A stretch of 64,000 bases of DNA, taken from contig CACYSU010000002.1 in NCBI GenBank assembly GCA_902777205.1, positions 62,001 through 126,000 on the forward strand, given 5' to 3'. Below, one piece after another: positions 10,283 to 21,537 of the stretch (positions within the stretch are counted from its first letter, which is position 1; each line of letters starts with the position of its first letter). This DNA comes from an uncultured Rhodospirillales bacterium. GTDB taxonomy: Bacteria > Pseudomonadota > Alphaproteobacteria > CAAGCB01 > CAG-977. Under the pieces are notes generated by a model, which was given only the letters and a program-made list of their open reading frames with translations, was not told where the DNA came from and did not search any database. The translations under genes and the position numbers were made by a program.

Positions 10283-11476
10283 TTATTTCTTAGCCGGAGC
10301 GACGGCTTTCGCCCGTTCCTTTTTCACCGGCGCCTTTTCGGGCGCGGCGGCCTGTTTTTTCGGCGCGGCGTCGATCACGACCTCCTGCCCCGGACGGACT
10401 TTCTGCAAACCGCTGACGATGACGCGGTCGCCGGCTTCCAACCCGTCGGTGACGACGATGTCCTTGCCCTGTTCCGCGCCGACGGCGACGGGTTTGTTGA
10501 CGACCTTGTTCTGTGCGTCAACGACGTAAACGTATTTCGACGTGGCGGAAGACATCAAAGCGGCCTGAGAAATGACGACCTTTTCCTCGGGGGCTTCGTA
10601 TTCCAGCAAAACGGAAACGAACTGTCCGGAAACCAGCTGTTTGGACGGGTTCGGGAAAACGGCGCGCAATTTGACGGTGTCGGTCGAATCGTCAACGATG
10701 ACGTCGGTGAAGTTGATCTGACCGCCGTAACGGTAAACCGAGGAATCCGCCATGATCAGGGAAACCGCCAGATTGTCGTTGCCGGATTTCAGCATCCCCG
10801 CGTTCTGCATGGCCAGCAATTCGCGTTCGGACACCGAAAACAGCACATAGATCGGATCATAGCTGACCATCGTCGCCAACGTGGAATTGACGGACAGGTA
10901 TTCGCCGGCGGAATAGGCGGACAAACCGATTTTTCCGGTGAACGGGGCTTTGATGTCGGTATAGCTCAAATCCAGCTTGGCCAGTTTCAAAGCGGCCTGC
11001 GCCTGCGCGACGGCGCCTTTGGCGATGCTGTTCTGCGCTTCGCGCGTATCGACGGTCGATTGGGAAATGTTGCCCGTTTTGCGCAATTCCAAAGCGCGGT
11101 CCAAATCCAGCTTGGTGTTTTTGGCGTCTGCTTCGGCTTTGGCCAGATTGGCGGCGGCCTCGGCGACTTTCGCTTCAAACGGTTCGCGTTCCAAAACGAA
11201 CAGGATCTGGCCTTTTTTGACGATGTCGCCTTCTTCAAACAGGCGGTCTTTCAAAAATCCGGCGACGCGGGCTTTCAGCGTCACGGAATTGACGGCGTCA
11301 ACCCGTCCGGGGAAACTGAAACGTTCGGTATAGGCTTTATAGCCCGCCTTTTCCACGGTGACGTGCGGTTTTTGCACGACCTGCACGGCCGCGTCCTTTT
11401 TCTTCAGACAGCCGTTCAGCATCAAAACGGACGCCACGGCACAGGCAAAAAACGACAAAGAGCGATTTTTCAACAT
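10283..11476 (-). CDS. RND efflux periplasmic adaptor (membrane fusion protein)
   Basis: A 397-residue AcrA/MexA-type lipoprotein that links the pump to an outer-membrane channel. Residues 1-23 are a lipoprotein signal (lipobox LNGC). Then come a lipoyl half-motif (VTLKARVAGFLKDRLFEEGD), a long alpha-helical hairpin (about 95-165, with AKAEADAKNTKLDLDRA), the second lipoyl half (IKAPFTGKIG), a beta-barrel and a membrane-proximal domain. The C-terminal 30 residues are Ala/Lys/Pro-rich. GGGAG precedes the ATG by eight bases. A promoter for both pump genes must lie in 11477-11572, but I see no convincing -35/-10 pair. Confidence 0.92.
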   Translation of the reverse strand: MLKNRSLSFFACAVASVLMLNGCLKKKDAAVQVVQKPHVTVEKAGYKAYTERFSFPGRVDAVNSVTLKARVAGFLKDRLFEEGDIVKKGQILFVLEREPFEAKVAEAAANLAKAEADAKNTKLDLDRALELRKTGNISQSTVDTREAQNSIAKGAVAQAQAALKLAKLDLSYTDIKAPFTGKIGLSAYSAGEYLSVNSTLATMVSYDPIYVLFSVSERELLAMQNAGMLKSGNDNLAVSLIMADSSVYRYGGQINFTDVIVDDSTDTVKLRAVFPNPSKQLVSGQFVSVLLEYEAPEEKVVISQAALMSSATSKYVYVVDAQNKVVNKPVAVGAEQGKDIVVTDGLEAGDRVIVSGLQKVRPGQEVVIDAAPKKQAAAPEKAPVKKERAKAVAPAKK

Positions 11477-14344: not shown

Positions 14345-15136
14345 ATGACAGAACAAATTCCGGCAGAAAAACTGTTGCAATGGCAAATCACCGCGGGGGT
14401 TGACGAAACGATCGGCGACATCCCCGTCAACCGCTTTGCGCCGGTTAAAAAAACGGATGCGCCCGCCCTCGGCGACACCGAATCCGCCCCCGTCGTGTTC
14501 GCGCCAACGCCGCAGCAAACCGAATCCGCCCCTCTGCCGCCCCCGCCGACAATCGCTTTGGCCGGACAGGCGGCGACTTTGGACGAACTGCGCGCCGCCA
14601 TCGCCGCCTTTGACGGCTGTTCGCTGAAAGAAACGGCGGCCAACATGGTTTTCGCGGCCGGAAATCCGGACGCCCGCCTGATGATCATCGGCGAAGCCCC
14701 CGGCGCGGAGGAAGACCGGCAGGGTCTGCCCTTTGTCGGCGCCAGCGGCCATTTGCTGGATCTGATGCTGAAATCAATCGGATTGGACAGGACGCAAGTC
14801 TATATTTCCAACATCCTGCCGTGGCGGCCGCCGGCCAACCGCAAACCGTCCGAATCGGAAATGGCGCTGTTCACGCCGTTCGTGCGCCGCCACATCGCGC
14901 TGGTCAAACCGGATGTCCTGCTGCTGCTGGGCGGCAGCGCCGTGTCCGCCCTGATGAACACCAACGCCGGCATTACGAAAACCCGCGGCCGGTGGATGAG
15001 CTACCGCGACGGCGACACCGCCATTGACGCGCTGGCGTCCTTTCACCCCGCGTTTTTGCTGCGCACCCCCGCACAGAAAAAACTGGCATGGCGCGATTTG
15101 CTGACCGTGAAAAAACGGCTGGCGGTTCAGCCCTGA
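14345..15136 (+). CDS. uracil-DNA glycosylase, family 4/SPO1-type
   Basis: A 263-residue DNA repair enzyme predicted to remove uracil from DNA. An 80-residue Pro/Ala-rich N-terminal extension precedes the UDG domain. Motif A is IGEAPGAEEDRQGLPFVG, then VYISNILPWRPPANRKP, and motif B HPAFLLRTPAQKK. Classical family-4 enzymes bind a 4Fe-4S cluster through four cysteines. Here only one Cys exists in the whole protein (FDGC), so a normal cluster cannot form. Some databases call relatives bacteriophage-type DNA polymerase; the glycosylase fold is the better call. It ends convergently with the InsA-like gene, overlapping by 10 bases. Confidence 0.85.
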   Translation: MTEQIPAEKLLQWQITAGVDETIGDIPVNRFAPVKKTDAPALGDTESAPVVFAPTPQQTESAPLPPPPTIALAGQAATLDELRAAIAAFDGCSLKETAANMVFAAGNPDARLMIIGEAPGAEEDRQGLPFVGASGHLLDLMLKSIGLDRTQVYISNILPWRPPANRKPSESEMALFTPFVRRHIALVKPDVLLLLGGSAVSALMNTNAGITKTRGRWMSYRDGDTAIDALASFHPAFLLRTPAQKKLAWRDLLTVKKRLAVQP

Positions 15137-15576
15137 CCGCCCCTTTGCTTCGACGGATTTGAATTTTCGATAATGATCTGAACCTTGCTGCCGTTCGGCA
15201 ATTCGGTTCCTAAAACATAGGATTCGCGGTTCAAATCCTCTTTGTCCAAAGCCGACAGATACGCCAGAATCTCTTTCAGCTTCACTTTTTTCATTTGTTC
15301 CATTTTAGGCATTTCATCCAGATATTCCGTGTAAACCGTTTTCATCCAGCGGGACACGGTCTGCACGCTGACGCCGATCAACTTGGCGATCATGCTCATC
15401 GACATTCCGGACGCGTACAGCATGACCGCCGTCCGCTTTTCCTGATCGCTGCGGCCGTGCGGCTTCGTTTTCGTATATTGATAGCCGCATTTTTTGCATT
15501 TGTAACGCTGCAAACCGCCGACGAAACCGTTTTTCACCGCCTTGTCGCAGCCGCATCTCAAACATTTCAATTCCAT
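15127..15576 (-). CDS. lone InsA-like zinc-ribbon/HTH protein (IS1-type)
   Basis: A 149-residue protein resembling the IS1 InsA regulator half of a transposase. A zinc ribbon opens it (CLRCGC then CKKCGYQYTK), followed by a helix-turn-helix (MSMIAKLIGVSVQTVSRWMK, about 62-82). The last 60 residues (KLKEILAYLSALDKEDLNRE onward) have no InsB-like DDE domain. No insB, terminal repeats or target duplication are seen nearby, so this is either a domesticated DNA-binding protein or a remnant. The gene is intact, has AAGG eight bases before ATG 15576, and faces a palindrome-rich AT region (15646-15667) that could hold its own operator. Confidence 0.75.
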   Translation of the reverse strand: MELKCLRCGCDKAVKNGFVGGLQRYKCKKCGYQYTKTKPHGRSDQEKRTAVMLYASGMSMSMIAKLIGVSVQTVSRWMKTVYTEYLDEMPKMEQMKKVKLKEILAYLSALDKEDLNRESYVLGTELPNGSKVQIIIENSNPSKQRGGQG

Positions 15577-16722: not shown

Positions 16723-17223
16723 TCAGCCGGCCAACTGCAGAATGTCGCACAGTTTGACGGTGGCTTCCTGCGTGTTGATTTTTTCCAACGCGGCCAGCTC
16801 GTTCGCCAAACGATCCAACGCCTGTTCATAAATTTGGCGTTCGCTGTACGACTGGTCGGACTGCGATTGCGACCGGTACAGGTCGCGGACGACTTCGGCG
16901 ATGGACACCGGATCGCCGGAATTGATTTTCGCTTCGTATTCCTGCGCGCGGCGGCTCCACATCGTGCGTTTCGTTTTGGATTTTCCGCGCAGCGTTTCCA
17001 ACGCCGTATCCATGATGTTTTTGTTCGACAGCTTTCTTAATCCGGAATTTTTAGCCTTGGCCATCGGAACGCGCAGCGTCATGCGGTCTTTGTCAAAATG
17101 GACGGCGATCAACTCCAATTCCTGTCCCGCGACGGTGTCTTTCGTAATGCTCAGCACTTTGCCGACGCCATGGGTCGGATAAACGACGAAATCACCGGTC
17201 GAAAAAGAAACTTCCTTCACCAT
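16723..17223 (-). CDS. carD: CarD/CdnL-family transcription regulator
   Basis: A 166-residue RNA polymerase-binding protein that stabilises open promoter complexes, notably at rRNA promoters, in families where it has been studied. The N-terminal Tudor-like domain is clear (FSTGDFVVYPTHGVGKVLSI, about 7-26, to LRVPMAKAKNSGLRKLS). The C-terminal helical DNA-contacting domain includes TMWSRRAQEYEAKINSGDP and AEVVRDLYRS. GAGG lies nine bases before ATG 17223. The 241-bp leader upstream holds two sizeable hairpins, so regulation at the RNA level is possible. Confidence 0.93.
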   Translation of the reverse strand: MVKEVSFSTGDFVVYPTHGVGKVLSITKDTVAGQELELIAVHFDKDRMTLRVPMAKAKNSGLRKLSNKNIMDTALETLRGKSKTKRTMWSRRAQEYEAKINSGDPVSIAEVVRDLYRSQSQSDQSYSERQIYEQALDRLANELAALEKINTQEATVKLCDILQLAG

Positions 17224-17464
17224 TTCAAGTATCCTCTATCAAGGTTTACCCGTGTGAAAAGGGTTTTCGACTTTTTCCAACGAAAAAGCCGCGTTTTCAC
17301 AACTTGTCTTTAAAGTTTTCCGTGGAAAGGCACCGGCCTTTCCTTTAAAGGACTATCTTATATACCACAAAAACGGCCTTTTGGATAGTCTTTTAGCGTC
17401 GAAAATGTCATATTTTTTTAATGAAGCGCGAAAAACGGCGGAAACGCACCCGCCGCGGCAACCG
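17224..17464. other. carD leader with two inverted repeats
   Basis: No gene here. GGAAAGGC / GCCTTTCC (17324-17343) forms a perfect 8-bp stem around ACCG. GACTATC / GATAGTC (17351-17357 and 17384-17390) forms a second 7-bp inverted repeat; on the minus strand a TATA-rich tract (complement of 17358-17366) lies between its arms. Either could be the terminator of the upstream pseudouridine-synthase gene, or an operator or leader of carD; neither has a clean T-run. Confidence 0.45.
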
Positions 17465-18268
17465 TCACGGACGGCCTTGCGCGAAATCGACGGCCTGCGC
17501 CAAACGATCCGCCGGCGTCAGCTGCAATTCCAAAATTTCATTGGAAAACGGCCGTTTGAACCGCAAAAAGTACGCCTGCATCGCCAAACCGTCCGAAAAA
17601 CCGCCGCTGAAGGTCGCGCCATACATCGCGTCCCCGAAAACGGGATGACCGGCGGACGCCAGATGCGCGCGCACCTGATGCCGGCGGCGGGTGCGTTCGG
17701 ACACGTCCAGATACGTCGCGTTTTTCAACCGGCGCACGACGGTGTATCCGGTCGCGGCGTCCTGCCCCGTTCCCTTTTTCACGGTTTTCATTTTGCGCCC
17801 CGATTTGTCCGCGGGATCTTTGTCAACCGGCGCGTTGATGACGCCGCCGTCTTTTGCCACAATCCCCTCGACAACCGCAAAGTACCGTTTTTCGATATTG
17901 CCGTCGCGCGACTGCTGCAATAAAAACCGCTGCGCCTTTTTGTTTTTGGCGAACAGGATCAGCCCCTGCGCGCCGCGGTCAAGCGTGTCAACCCTGTAAA
18001 ACCATTGCGTTTCAGCCGACAGATTGCCGCATCCGGCGCGGACGCGCAGCAATTCCGCGACGGATTCACCCTTTTTCCCGTCGCTGTAAAAAGCGGGAAC
18101 GCCGGCCTTTTTATTCACGACAATGACATCGTCATCCTCGTAAACGACATTGACGGCGCGGTCGATATTGTCGCAATTCGCCGCGGGGTGATCCTGCGAC
18201 TCCAGCGGTTTCAGAACGCATCCGGATAACACCGGCGCCAGCAAAAGGAAAAACAGGATTTTTTTCAT
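17465..18268 (-). CDS. RluA-family pseudouridine synthase-like protein with lipoprotein signal
   Basis: A 267-residue protein whose fold is clearly that of RluA-type RNA pseudouridine synthases: YEDDDVIVVNKKAGVPAF (43-60), GLILFAKNKKA (102-112), EKRYFAVVEG and RRRHQVRAHLASAGHPVFGD (194-213). Two things are odd. First, residues 1-17 form a textbook lipoprotein signal ending LSGC (Cys17), which would send it out of the cytoplasm, away from RNA. Second, the usual HRLDxxTSG motif reads DTLDRGAQG: Asp97 is kept but the near-invariant Arg before it is Thr95. The start is well supported, because AAGGGGGAG stands just before ATG 18268, nine bases after the dehydrogenase stop. It may be a repurposed envelope protein; a cytoplasmic enzyme with an unprocessed N-terminus is the alternative. 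Confidence 0.82.
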   Translation of the reverse strand: MKKILFFLLLAPVLSGCVLKPLESQDHPAANCDNIDRAVNVVYEDDDVIVVNKKAGVPAFYSDGKKGESVAELLRVRAGCGNLSAETQWFYRVDTLDRGAQGLILFAKNKKAQRFLLQQSRDGNIEKRYFAVVEGIVAKDGGVINAPVDKDPADKSGRKMKTVKKGTGQDAATGYTVVRRLKNATYLDVSERTRRRHQVRAHLASAGHPVFGDAMYGATFSGGFSDGLAMQAYFLRFKRPFSNEILELQLTPADRLAQAVDFAQGRP

Positions 18269-18277
18269 CGCTCCCCC

Positions 18278-20605
18278 TTACGCGGACAATTCCCGACGCA
18301 ATTTGGAAAACTTTTCGTCCTTGTGTCCGCTCTGACTGACGGATTCCTCGGCGATTCCGCCCTCCATGCCGTTGCGCAGAACCGTCAGCGTCATGTTTTC
18401 GATTTCGGCGACCAGCGCGCGCATTTCGTCGGCCTGACGCATCGCGTCCAACGCGCCGTCCTTGGTTTCGATCATCGCGAACAGCTCTTCGGTCTTATAG
18501 GCTTCGGCCACGACCAGATAAGCTTTGACGACATCAACGACGGGCGCGCCGCTTTCCGAACGCATTTTGCCGATGAAATTGACGCCGACGCGGTTGATCA
18601 GGTTGTTGACGATCATCGTCGCGCTGATTTCGCGGTGCAGCGGATGTTTCAAAATGTAATCGCCCGCCGTTTCGCGCAGCACCCGCGGGAAATATTGCGG
18701 CAGCCGCCGTTCGCGGATGAACGCGTCGTCCGGCAGATCGCTGTTCAGCACGGCGTCGTACAAAAACAGCTTGGCGTAAGCCATCAAAACGCACAGTTCC
18801 GGACGGGTCAGCCCCTTGCCCAGATTGAAACGGGCGTCCATTTCCGCGTCCGACGGCAGGGATTCCAAAGCCCTGTTCAACCGGTCGTCCTTTTCCAGCG
18901 CGTGCATCAGCTTTTTGTTGCCGGGGATGCTTTTCGCGCCGCGGTGCTGCATATAGGACAAAATCTGCGTTTGCTGATAATTGTCGCGCAGCACCAGACC
19001 GGCAACGTCGTTTTGCATGGATTTCAGCAGCCCGTTGCGCTGTTCCATCGTCATTTTGCCGTCGGCGACCATCATGTTCAGCATGATTTTGATGTTGACT
19101 TCGTGGTCGGAACAATCGACGCCGCCGGAATTGTCCACGGCGTCCGTGTTCAAACGCCCGCCGTTCATGGCGTATTCGATGCGGGCTTTCTGCGTCAATC
19201 CCAAATTCGCCCCTTCGGCCACGATTTTGGCGCGGACGCGTCCGGCGTCGATGCGGCAATCCGTGTTCGCGCCGTCCTTGGCGTCCATCTGCGTTTCGGC
19301 GCCGGCTTTGACATACGTCCCGATGCCGCCGAAATACAGCAGATCGACCGGAGCGGACAATATCGCCTTGATCAGTTCGTCCGGCGTCAAAACGGTCTGC
19401 GTCGTCCCCAAAACGGAACAAGCCTCTTTGGAAATGGTGATGATTTCGTCTTTGCGGCTGTAAACGCCGCCGCCGGCGGACAACAGCGAACGGTCGTAGT
19501 CGATCCACCCCGCCTCGGCCTTGAACAGGCGTTCGCGTTCCTTGTAGGAAACGGCCGGATCGGGCGTCGGATCAATGAAAATCGACGAAGAGTTGAACGC
19601 CGCGATCAATTTCATATGCTTGGAACACAACATGGCGTTGCCGAACACGTCGCCCGCCATGCTGCCCGACCCGACGGCGGTGAAATCCTGCGTCTGGCAA
19701 TCAACGCCCGTTTCGCGGAAATGACGTTTGACGCTTTCCCACGACCCGCGCGCGGTAATGGCCATGCCTTTGTGGCTGAAACCGGTGGAACCGCCCGAAG
19801 CGAACGCGTCGCCCAGCCAGAACCCGTATTGCAGGGACAAAGCGTTCGCGATGTCGGAAAAGTCCGCCGTCCCCTTGTCGGCCGCGACGACCAGATACGG
19901 ATCGTCGCCGTCATAGCGCACAACGTCGGCCGGATGCGTGATTTGCCCCGAAACGATGTTGTCCGTCAGATCCAGCAAACCGCGGATCATGGTTTGATAC
20001 CCTTTGACGGCATAGTCGCGAATCTGTTCCTTTGTGCCGTTTTCGGGCGGATGTTTGGGAAAGAAACCGCCTTTCGACCCGACGGGGACGATGACGACGT
20101 TTTTAACCTGCTGCGCCTTGACCAAACTCAAAATTTCCGTTCTGAAATCCTCTTTGCGGTTCGACCAGCGGATGCCGCCGCGCGCGATTTTCCCGAACCG
20201 CAGGTGGACGGCGTCCACATCGTCGGAATAAACAAAGATTTCGGCCATGGGCTTCGGTTTGGGCAGGTGGTGGATTTCGCCCGACGCGAATTTGAACGAA
20301 ACGTAGTCCTTTTGACCGTGTTCCTGATAAAAATTCGTGCGCAGCATCGCTTTCAAAACCGACCAGACCGCTTTCAACGCCGTGTTTTTGGGCATTTTGG
20401 CGTCAATTTCGTCCTGCAAAGCGGCGTATCCCTTGTCCGCGGCCTTTTCCGGATTGAATTTCAGGTCGAAATAACGCAAAAAGTCTTCCGTCATTTCGGG
20501 ATTTTCCTGATAAGCCTGCAAAACGGCGCGTTTCGTGGCGATCGCGGTTTGGCGGACATACGACGCCCAAGCGTTCAGCAAAAAGTCTTGACGATTGAAA
20601 AGCAT
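18278..20605 (-). CDS. NAD-dependent glutamate dehydrogenase, short (C-terminal catalytic) form
   Basis: Oxidises glutamate to 2-oxoglutarate and ammonium with NAD. The 775 residues match the catalytic half of the large Bact_GDH proteins: LPKPKPMAEIFVYSDD, then ARGGIRWSNRKEDFRTE, KAQQVKNVVIVPVGSKGGF, the substrate region GDDPYLVVAADKGTADFSD, the cofactor-domain segment AVGSGSMAGDVFGNAML, and VAEGANLGLTQKARIEY. Typical proteobacterial members are about 1600 residues, with a long N-terminal ACT/PAS-like regulatory half. That half is absent here, and the divergent neighbour leaves no room for it. ATG 20605 has AAAGGG upstream; a longer frame to 20668 overlaps the promoter. Likely co-transcribed with the pseudouridine-synthase-like gene. 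Confidence 0.9.
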   Translation of the reverse strand: MLFNRQDFLLNAWASYVRQTAIATKRAVLQAYQENPEMTEDFLRYFDLKFNPEKAADKGYAALQDEIDAKMPKNTALKAVWSVLKAMLRTNFYQEHGQKDYVSFKFASGEIHHLPKPKPMAEIFVYSDDVDAVHLRFGKIARGGIRWSNRKEDFRTEILSLVKAQQVKNVVIVPVGSKGGFFPKHPPENGTKEQIRDYAVKGYQTMIRGLLDLTDNIVSGQITHPADVVRYDGDDPYLVVAADKGTADFSDIANALSLQYGFWLGDAFASGGSTGFSHKGMAITARGSWESVKRHFRETGVDCQTQDFTAVGSGSMAGDVFGNAMLCSKHMKLIAAFNSSSIFIDPTPDPAVSYKERERLFKAEAGWIDYDRSLLSAGGGVYSRKDEIITISKEACSVLGTTQTVLTPDELIKAILSAPVDLLYFGGIGTYVKAGAETQMDAKDGANTDCRIDAGRVRAKIVAEGANLGLTQKARIEYAMNGGRLNTDAVDNSGGVDCSDHEVNIKIMLNMMVADGKMTMEQRNGLLKSMQNDVAGLVLRDNYQQTQILSYMQHRGAKSIPGNKKLMHALEKDDRLNRALESLPSDAEMDARFNLGKGLTRPELCVLMAYAKLFLYDAVLNSDLPDDAFIRERRLPQYFPRVLRETAGDYILKHPLHREISATMIVNNLINRVGVNFIGKMRSESGAPVVDVVKAYLVVAEAYKTEELFAMIETKDGALDAMRQADEMRALVAEIENMTLTVLRNGMEGGIAEESVSQSGHKDEKFSKLRRELSA

Positions 20606-20639
20606 AGGTTTTCCCTTTGTTAAAATACGAATTTTCCAC

Positions 20640-20668
20640 AGAATATACTGGTGTTTTGCAAACGACAA
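20640..20668 (-). promoter_or_regulatory. candidate promoter of the glutamate dehydrogenase gene
   Basis: On the minus strand TTGTCG (complement of 20663-20668) and TATTCT (complement of 20640-20645) are 17 bases apart, 35 bases upstream of the start codon at 20605. Confidence 0.45.
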
Positions 20669-20748: not shown

Positions 20749-21537
20749 ATGGAAAACGGACTTTTTTCAAAAACGGCGCGGGTATGCGCGCTCTTTTTAA
20801 AATATCTGCTTTACCTGTTCAATCTGGCTTTGCTGGGCGGATTGGGCGTCAAAACCGTCAACCTGTGGATCGCGCGCCCGTTCGATTTTTCCGACATGGT
20901 GGCGGCTTTTCCCGCGGAACCGGAATTCCTTGACAAGGCCGGCGCGGAAAAACAGTTTCTGGCGGCGGCCGGATTTGAAACGGCGGTGTTCATCCTCGGC
21001 GGTTTTCTGTGCTACGAACTGCTGATCAAACAAAAAAGCTTCCGCCGCGGGCTGATCGCGCCGATGTTCGCCCTGTTTTTGTGGGCGACGGGGGAAAGCG
21101 TCTTTCTTTTCTTTCCCGCGACGGAAAAGGCGCAGGACATCAACGTCTGCCGGACGATGAACATATCGTGGGACACCAAAAACCACCGCTGCCGCCTGAT
21201 GGATCTGGAATTGCGGCGTTTTGAAAAGTTAAAGGCGGCCAAGAAAAAACGCCCCGTGAAAAAGGCTTTGCCCCCGAAACCGGCCGCGCAGCCCGAAAAA
21301 ACAACGCCGCCCGCGCCGGTCAAGGCGACGCCCGAACACGCCGCCGAAATCAAGCCGGCGGCCAAAACCGCCAAACGACCGGCCGCCGCCGCAAAACCCG
21401 TCCGCAAAAAACGCGCCAAAGCCCCCGCCTCGAATCCGGCGACGAAAACAGCGCCGACCGCCGTTCCCGCCGCCACGCCCAAAACCGCGCCGAAACCCGT
21501 GCAAAAACCGCTGCCCGTCCAAAACAAAAAGGTTTGA
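20749..21537 (+). CDS. membrane protein with Ala/Pro/Lys-rich tail
   Basis: A 262-residue protein of unknown function. Three membrane segments are visible, about 12-38 (LLYLFNLALLGGLGVKTV), 72-90 and 102-120 (FALFLWATGESVFLFFP). A small loop with Cys at CRTMNISW and HRCRLMD follows. The last 105 residues (from about 158) are low-complexity repeats of Lys, Ala and Pro, such as KKALPPKPAAQPEKTTPPAP, similar in composition to histone H1-like or TonB-spanning tails. The start has AGGGA a few bases ahead. It is followed one base later by the MscS gene, so the two are likely co-expressed; whether the tail faces cytoplasm or periplasm cannot be decided. Confidence 0.75.
   Translation: MENGLFSKTARVCALFLKYLLYLFNLALLGGLGVKTVNLWIARPFDFSDMVAAFPAEPEFLDKAGAEKQFLAAAGFETAVFILGGFLCYELLIKQKSFRRGLIAPMFALFLWATGESVFLFFPATEKAQDINVCRTMNISWDTKNHRCRLMDLELRRFEKLKAAKKKRPVKKALPPKPAAQPEKTTPPAPVKATPEHAAEIKPAAKTAKRPAAAAKPVRKKRAKAPASNPATKTAPTAVPAATPKTAPKPVQKPLPVQNKKV

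Follow-up and report, generated by a model that had tools for sequence, protein, structure and literature searches.

The PsiLp gene lies on the reverse strand of the 64,000-nucleotide stretch of DNA analysed here (the window) and codes for a protein of 267 residues, in which a predicted lipoprotein signal is followed by a short linker and an RluA-type pseudouridine-synthase domain (Table 1). It is flanked upstream by the gene of an NAD-glutamate dehydrogenase (GDH) and downstream by that of CarD, which served as a synteny anchor. The original prediction had placed the gene nine bases behind GDH with a distinct sequence directly in front of its ATG, and both features are indeed found: the stop codon of GDH (TAA) occupies positions 18278-18280, the ATG follows 9 bases on and is preceded by GGGGGAGCG, and the gap contains the Shine-Dalgarno sequence GGGGGAG. 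Both genes are probably co-transcribed. With only ~776 residues, the GDH is compact and includes the full catalytic domain, half of the C-terminal domain and little of the N-terminal part; the NAD-glutamate dehydrogenases of relatives within the family show the same compact form.

Table 1 Features of the PsiLp locus, in window coordinates.
Feature	Position	Strand	Remark
PsiLp, complete gene (267 aa)	17465..18268	-	
Predicted lipoprotein signal peptide, residues 1-17, MKKILFFLLLAPVLSGC; lipobox LSGC, lipid Cys17	18218..18268	-	LPAM_1 21.7 bits
Cys32, linker, at conserved CDNI	18173..18175	-	common to both members, not a family feature
Cys80	18029..18031	-	common to both members
PF00849 PseudoU_synth_2 domain, residues 47-205	17654..18130	-	E 5e-22
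Motif II DTLD, residues 94-97, replacing HRLD	17978..17989	-	Thr95 in place of the base-flipping Arg; Asp97 kept
Tyr129, conserved active-site Tyr	17882..17884	-	kept in both members
Motif III, residues 191-202, ERTRRRHQVRAH	17663..17698	-	ETGRTHQIRVH in the family; Arg200 kept
Shine-Dalgarno sequence GGGGGAG of PsiLp	18271..18277	-	between the GDH stop and the ATG
NAD-glutamate dehydrogenase (GDH), catalytic domain PF05088, upstream of PsiLp	18278..20668	-	same order at the orthologue locus
CarD, downstream of PsiLp	16723..17223	-	synteny anchor

The original prediction had read the first 17 residues as a lipoprotein signal with the lipobox LSGC, and the Pfam profile LPAM_1 covers precisely this segment with a score above its cut-off of 20 bits. 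The first in-frame ATG, GTG or TTG past Cys17 is a GTG at codon 51, within the second strand of the fold. Since no in-frame start lies between Cys17 and this codon and the ATG is equipped with a Shine-Dalgarno sequence, signal and domain belong to one protein. A mis-called start is thus ruled out, and a start past Cys17, which had been named as the finding that would overturn the lipoprotein assignment, is excluded by the sequence for the whole domain. A lipobox by chance is likewise ruled out, as the orthologue described below has one too; among 131 homologues, a lipobox start occurs in these two proteins only. The genome of the window encodes a signal peptidase II (PF01252, E 4e-37) and a DsbA-like protein. 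Cys17 is followed by Val18 and Leu19, with no Asp. A disulfide between Cys32 and Cys80 was considered as proof of export and is weakened by the resemblance of Cys80 to the Cys of the HC..SLSG motif, found near this position in 67 of 128 homologues; Cys80 is probably the counterpart of this Cys in RluD-type homologues and may be ancestral. An ordinary lipoprotein of the same genome, an RND-type efflux periplasmic adaptor-like protein at window positions 10283-11476, carries a lipoprotein-like signal with LNGC.

The domain behind the signal scored 79.2 bits against the Pfam profile PF00849 (gathering cut-off 26.8). It remained below the threshold of the NCBIfam model TIGR00005 (145.2 bits, cut-off 192.7) and far under those of the other subfamily and equivalog models (RluA/C/D, TruC). 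A structure prediction by AlphaFold2 from 57 sequences yielded a pLDDT of 80.6 and a pTM of 0.79; in much of the core the pLDDT exceeds 90, and in the signal it stays below 50. Comparison by Foldseek and VIA-align 2 matched the model to RluD from Neisseria (11wx, Z 28.5), RluA (2i82, Z 27.9) and RluD and RluC from E. coli. PsiLp is therefore confidently predicted to adopt the RluA/RluD catalytic-domain fold, and model and profile match agree with the earlier description of an RluA-type fold in frame behind the N-terminal signal. With RluD, RluA and RluC (PF00849, TIGR00005), PsiLp shares this fold (Z 27-28.5), the catalytic Asp, the active-site Tyr and the motif III Arg, and its nearest RluD-type homologues are 30-38% identical. 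It differs from them in having a lipobox signal in place of an S4 domain or a plain start, in the loss of the base-flipping Arg and in degraded motifs II and III.

A single orthologue was found in a genome of the same genus (G004, L007:1486-2220). It comprises 244 residues, is 40.7% identical to PsiLp and, as PsiLp does, follows GDH and precedes CarD. Its N-terminus, MRKFIFSFVFLMICGC, has a signal with the lipobox ICGC as judged by pattern; LPAM_1 gave no match to it at E 0.01, and PF00849 matched it at 60.7 bits. The protein is shorter by ~20 residues through an in-frame loss. Its motif II reads HHLD, so that the base-flipping Arg is gone here as well, and motif III has lost its GRTHQ part together with the conserved Tyr216. 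The original prediction had turned to orthologues to see whether signal and DTLD go together: signal and Arg loss occur jointly in both members, and the DTLD spelling itself is not shared. Orthologues that lack the signal and keep HRLD, named as the opposing case, were not encountered in this family of two, whose sole orthologue has the signal and lacks the Arg. In a phylogenetic tree, both members cluster (99/90); their branches are long and are placed next to E. coli RluA, possibly by a false join. A GCGNLS stretch hints at RluD ancestry for PsiLp, for which the tree placement is unreliable owing to the long branches.

In RluA-type enzymes, the Arg of the HRLD motif displaces the target base from the RNA stem. 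This column holds Arg in 129 of 129 homologues, Thr in PsiLp and His in the orthologue. The loss of the Arg with retention of Asp97 had been recognised before, and the alteration turns out to be wider, as six more family-conserved positions are changed in PsiLp (P90F, H94D, T100A, G194R, T196R and H231Q). T100A turns the Thr of TSG into Ala, and Gln231 replaces a near-invariant His. Near- or fully invariant among the 129 homologues are the HRLD Arg, the TSG Thr and the T, G, R, H, Q, R and H columns of motif III, whose core reads GRTHQIR in the family, RRRHQVR in PsiLp and MSSEELR in the orthologue. Out of 30 columns conserved at 95% or more, PsiLp keeps 20 and the orthologue 14, compared to a homologue median of 30 (5th percentile 27.4). 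Moreover, the net charge is +8 in PsiLp (pI 9.4) and -4 in the orthologue, which argues against a conserved basic RNA groove. Since RluD-type and RluC-type paralogues with an intact HRLD are encoded in the same genome, housekeeping pseudouridylation need not depend on PsiLp.

Could PsiLp, anchored to the membrane or exported, still form pseudouridine in an RNA of an unusual kind (perhaps one that is unstructured or lies outside the cytoplasm) or in a nucleoside, without Arg-driven base flipping? Asp97, Tyr129 and Arg200 are present in both members, PsiLp retains a basic surface and HQVR, and the HHLD of the orthologue offers a His, a residue that assists base flipping in TruB (PMC3919597). However, exchange of the base-flipping Arg for Met or Lys rendered RluA inactive, and RluB R108A kept 0.6% activity (PMC3919597). 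The orthologue is also devoid of the G-R-T-H-Q of motif III and of Tyr216, and the periplasm is not expected to hold ordinary RNA substrates. We therefore regard an active enzyme as unlikely.

PsiLp evolves rapidly. Between the same two genomes, it is 40.7% identical, compared to 71.7% for RluD, 83.8% for RluC, 82.2% for GDH, 80.6% for MscS and 98.2% for CarD. Another fast gene beside conserved ones, p262 (window 20749-21537), encodes a protein of 262 residues that has no Pfam match, ends in an Ala/Pro/Lys-rich tail and is 52.5% identical to its G004 counterpart. Synonymous sites are saturated in this genome pair (dS ~1.6-2 or more in other genes), which precludes a dN/dS figure for PsiLp; its dN of 0.55 is well under the saturated dS. 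In a simple neutral simulation, all 400 of 400 copies acquired stops, with ~9-13 expected, and the signal survived in at most 4 of 400 runs. Both members have an open reading frame and have kept the signal; thus, PsiLp evolves fast but under constraint. Identity between the members is highest in residues 201-225 (13/25), 226-252 (16/27) and the linker 18-38 (10/21), and lowest in residues 141-172 (3/32). Between the two members, it is the C-terminal region 201-252 (~56%, 29/52) and the linker that are best conserved, rather than the RNA-binding groove.

A second explanation would leave the hydrophobic N-terminus unprocessed and the domain in the cytoplasm, either anchored through its N-terminus or soluble, as an RNA-binding assembly factor. 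There is precedent for this in organelles: mt-LAF3, a pseudouridine-synthase homologue in trypanosome mitoribosome assembly, does not require catalysis (PMC11469412), and the PsiLp model aligns to it in 7aoi and 6yxx with Z ~22 and 20-21% identity in the structure alignment. Like PsiLp as we read it, mt-LAF3 uses the fold in a role without need of catalysis; unlike PsiLp, it works on organelle RNA and is not a lipoprotein. Against a cytoplasmic factor, a basic N-terminus, an uncharged core and the lipobox Cys pattern in orthologues of 41% identity predict export in an N-in/C-out orientation, a signal pattern that the neutral simulation seldom retains. The RNA-binding groove is also not conserved, and we find this explanation improbable.

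PsiLp is present in 2 of 12 genomes of the family, the same 12 that form the order sample, and missing from the other ten; the genome of one of the two members is 88% complete. The remaining members of the genus have a glycine-zipper lipoprotein gene, or no clear gene, between GDH and CarD, and a tblastn search of this gap yielded no convincing PsiLp remnant. No further orthologue appeared in class samples of 385 and 389 genomes or in a phylum sample of 398, which are partial and overlapping. These returned only weaker RluA-type matches that start at query residue 25-40 and have no signal. None was present either among the best 80 loci of a pattern-based scan of 84,980 genomes, which requires short exact peptides and could let 41%-identical relatives escape.

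The glycine-zipper lipoprotein (PF05433-like; in G002, G003, G004, G006 and G011) is, as PsiLp is, encoded between GDH and CarD, yet it is unrelated in sequence; in G004 its gene adjoins the PsiLp orthologue. It occupies the gap in most genus members (L143:1970-2425, L144:1857-2312, L007:943-1395). It is absent from window positions 17224-17464 and was not found in the genome of the window by a search that had no positive control.

A duplicated RluD-like gene that was fused to a lipoprotein signal and decays without function, its distribution reflecting repeated loss, would account for the rapid divergence (41% identity, where the paralogues have 72-84%), the patchy occurrence and the different motifs lost in the two members, but is quite unlikely in view of two open frames where ~9-13 stops are the neutral expectation, a codon composition matching the respective genome (GC3 0.71 and 0.43), a dN well below the saturated dS and the conservation of residues 201-252.

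Pseudouridine synthases have an ancient origin and work on RNA in the cytoplasm, the nucleus or organelles. In PsiLp, an enzyme that as a rule edits rRNA inside the cell has acquired an export and lipid tag and lost residues essential to it, which suggests that the fold now serves a new purpose in the envelope. We consider it probable that PsiLp is a lineage-specific envelope lipoprotein with an exapted RluA fold, most likely dead as a tRNA or rRNA pseudouridine synthase, because both members lack the base-flipping Arg and the wall that motif III forms in the RNA-binding cleft is degraded, most strongly in the orthologue. We also lean towards the wider view that a pseudouridine-synthase fold left the cytoplasm in the form of a membrane lipoprotein and took on a new, non-RNA-modifying envelope role in one genus of small-genome bacteria. 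Judging by a gene set with a large-type NAD-GDH and CarD, these bacteria are presumably Alphaproteobacteria. Between the two options left by the original prediction, an envelope protein reusing the fold has gained support from the signal and the Arg loss of the orthologue, and an unprocessed N-terminus has lost ground.

In our model of such an envelope lipoprotein, PsiLp would be exported by Sec, receive its lipid at Cys17 and then be cleaved by the signal peptidase II of the genome. Sorting would probably lead to the outer membrane, given Val18 and Leu19 and no Asp after the Cys, and a tether of ~20 residues would hold the domain at the periplasmic face. There, the fold may be kept as a scaffold that binds some other envelope ligand or partner. 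This scaffold reading is weakened by the retention of Asp97, Tyr129 and Arg200, none of which a purely structural relic needs, by the HQVR and the strongly basic character of PsiLp, which resemble an RNA binder, and by a family of two members in all, one of them without an LPAM_1 match. The open-access papers searched contained no account of a pseudouridine synthase that is exported or a lipoprotein. If our reading holds, an exported, lipid-anchored member without the base-flipping Arg would show that the fold can be redirected to the envelope, and PsiLp would be a clean case of a cytoplasmic enzyme gaining an export signal and turning into a pseudoenzyme.

Elsewhere in the window, positions 15127-15576 encode a stand-alone protein of 149 residues. 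Its N-terminus is rich in Cys, and by eye its transposase-like helix-turn-helix resembles InsA; the open reading frame does not include the catalytic part of a transposase.
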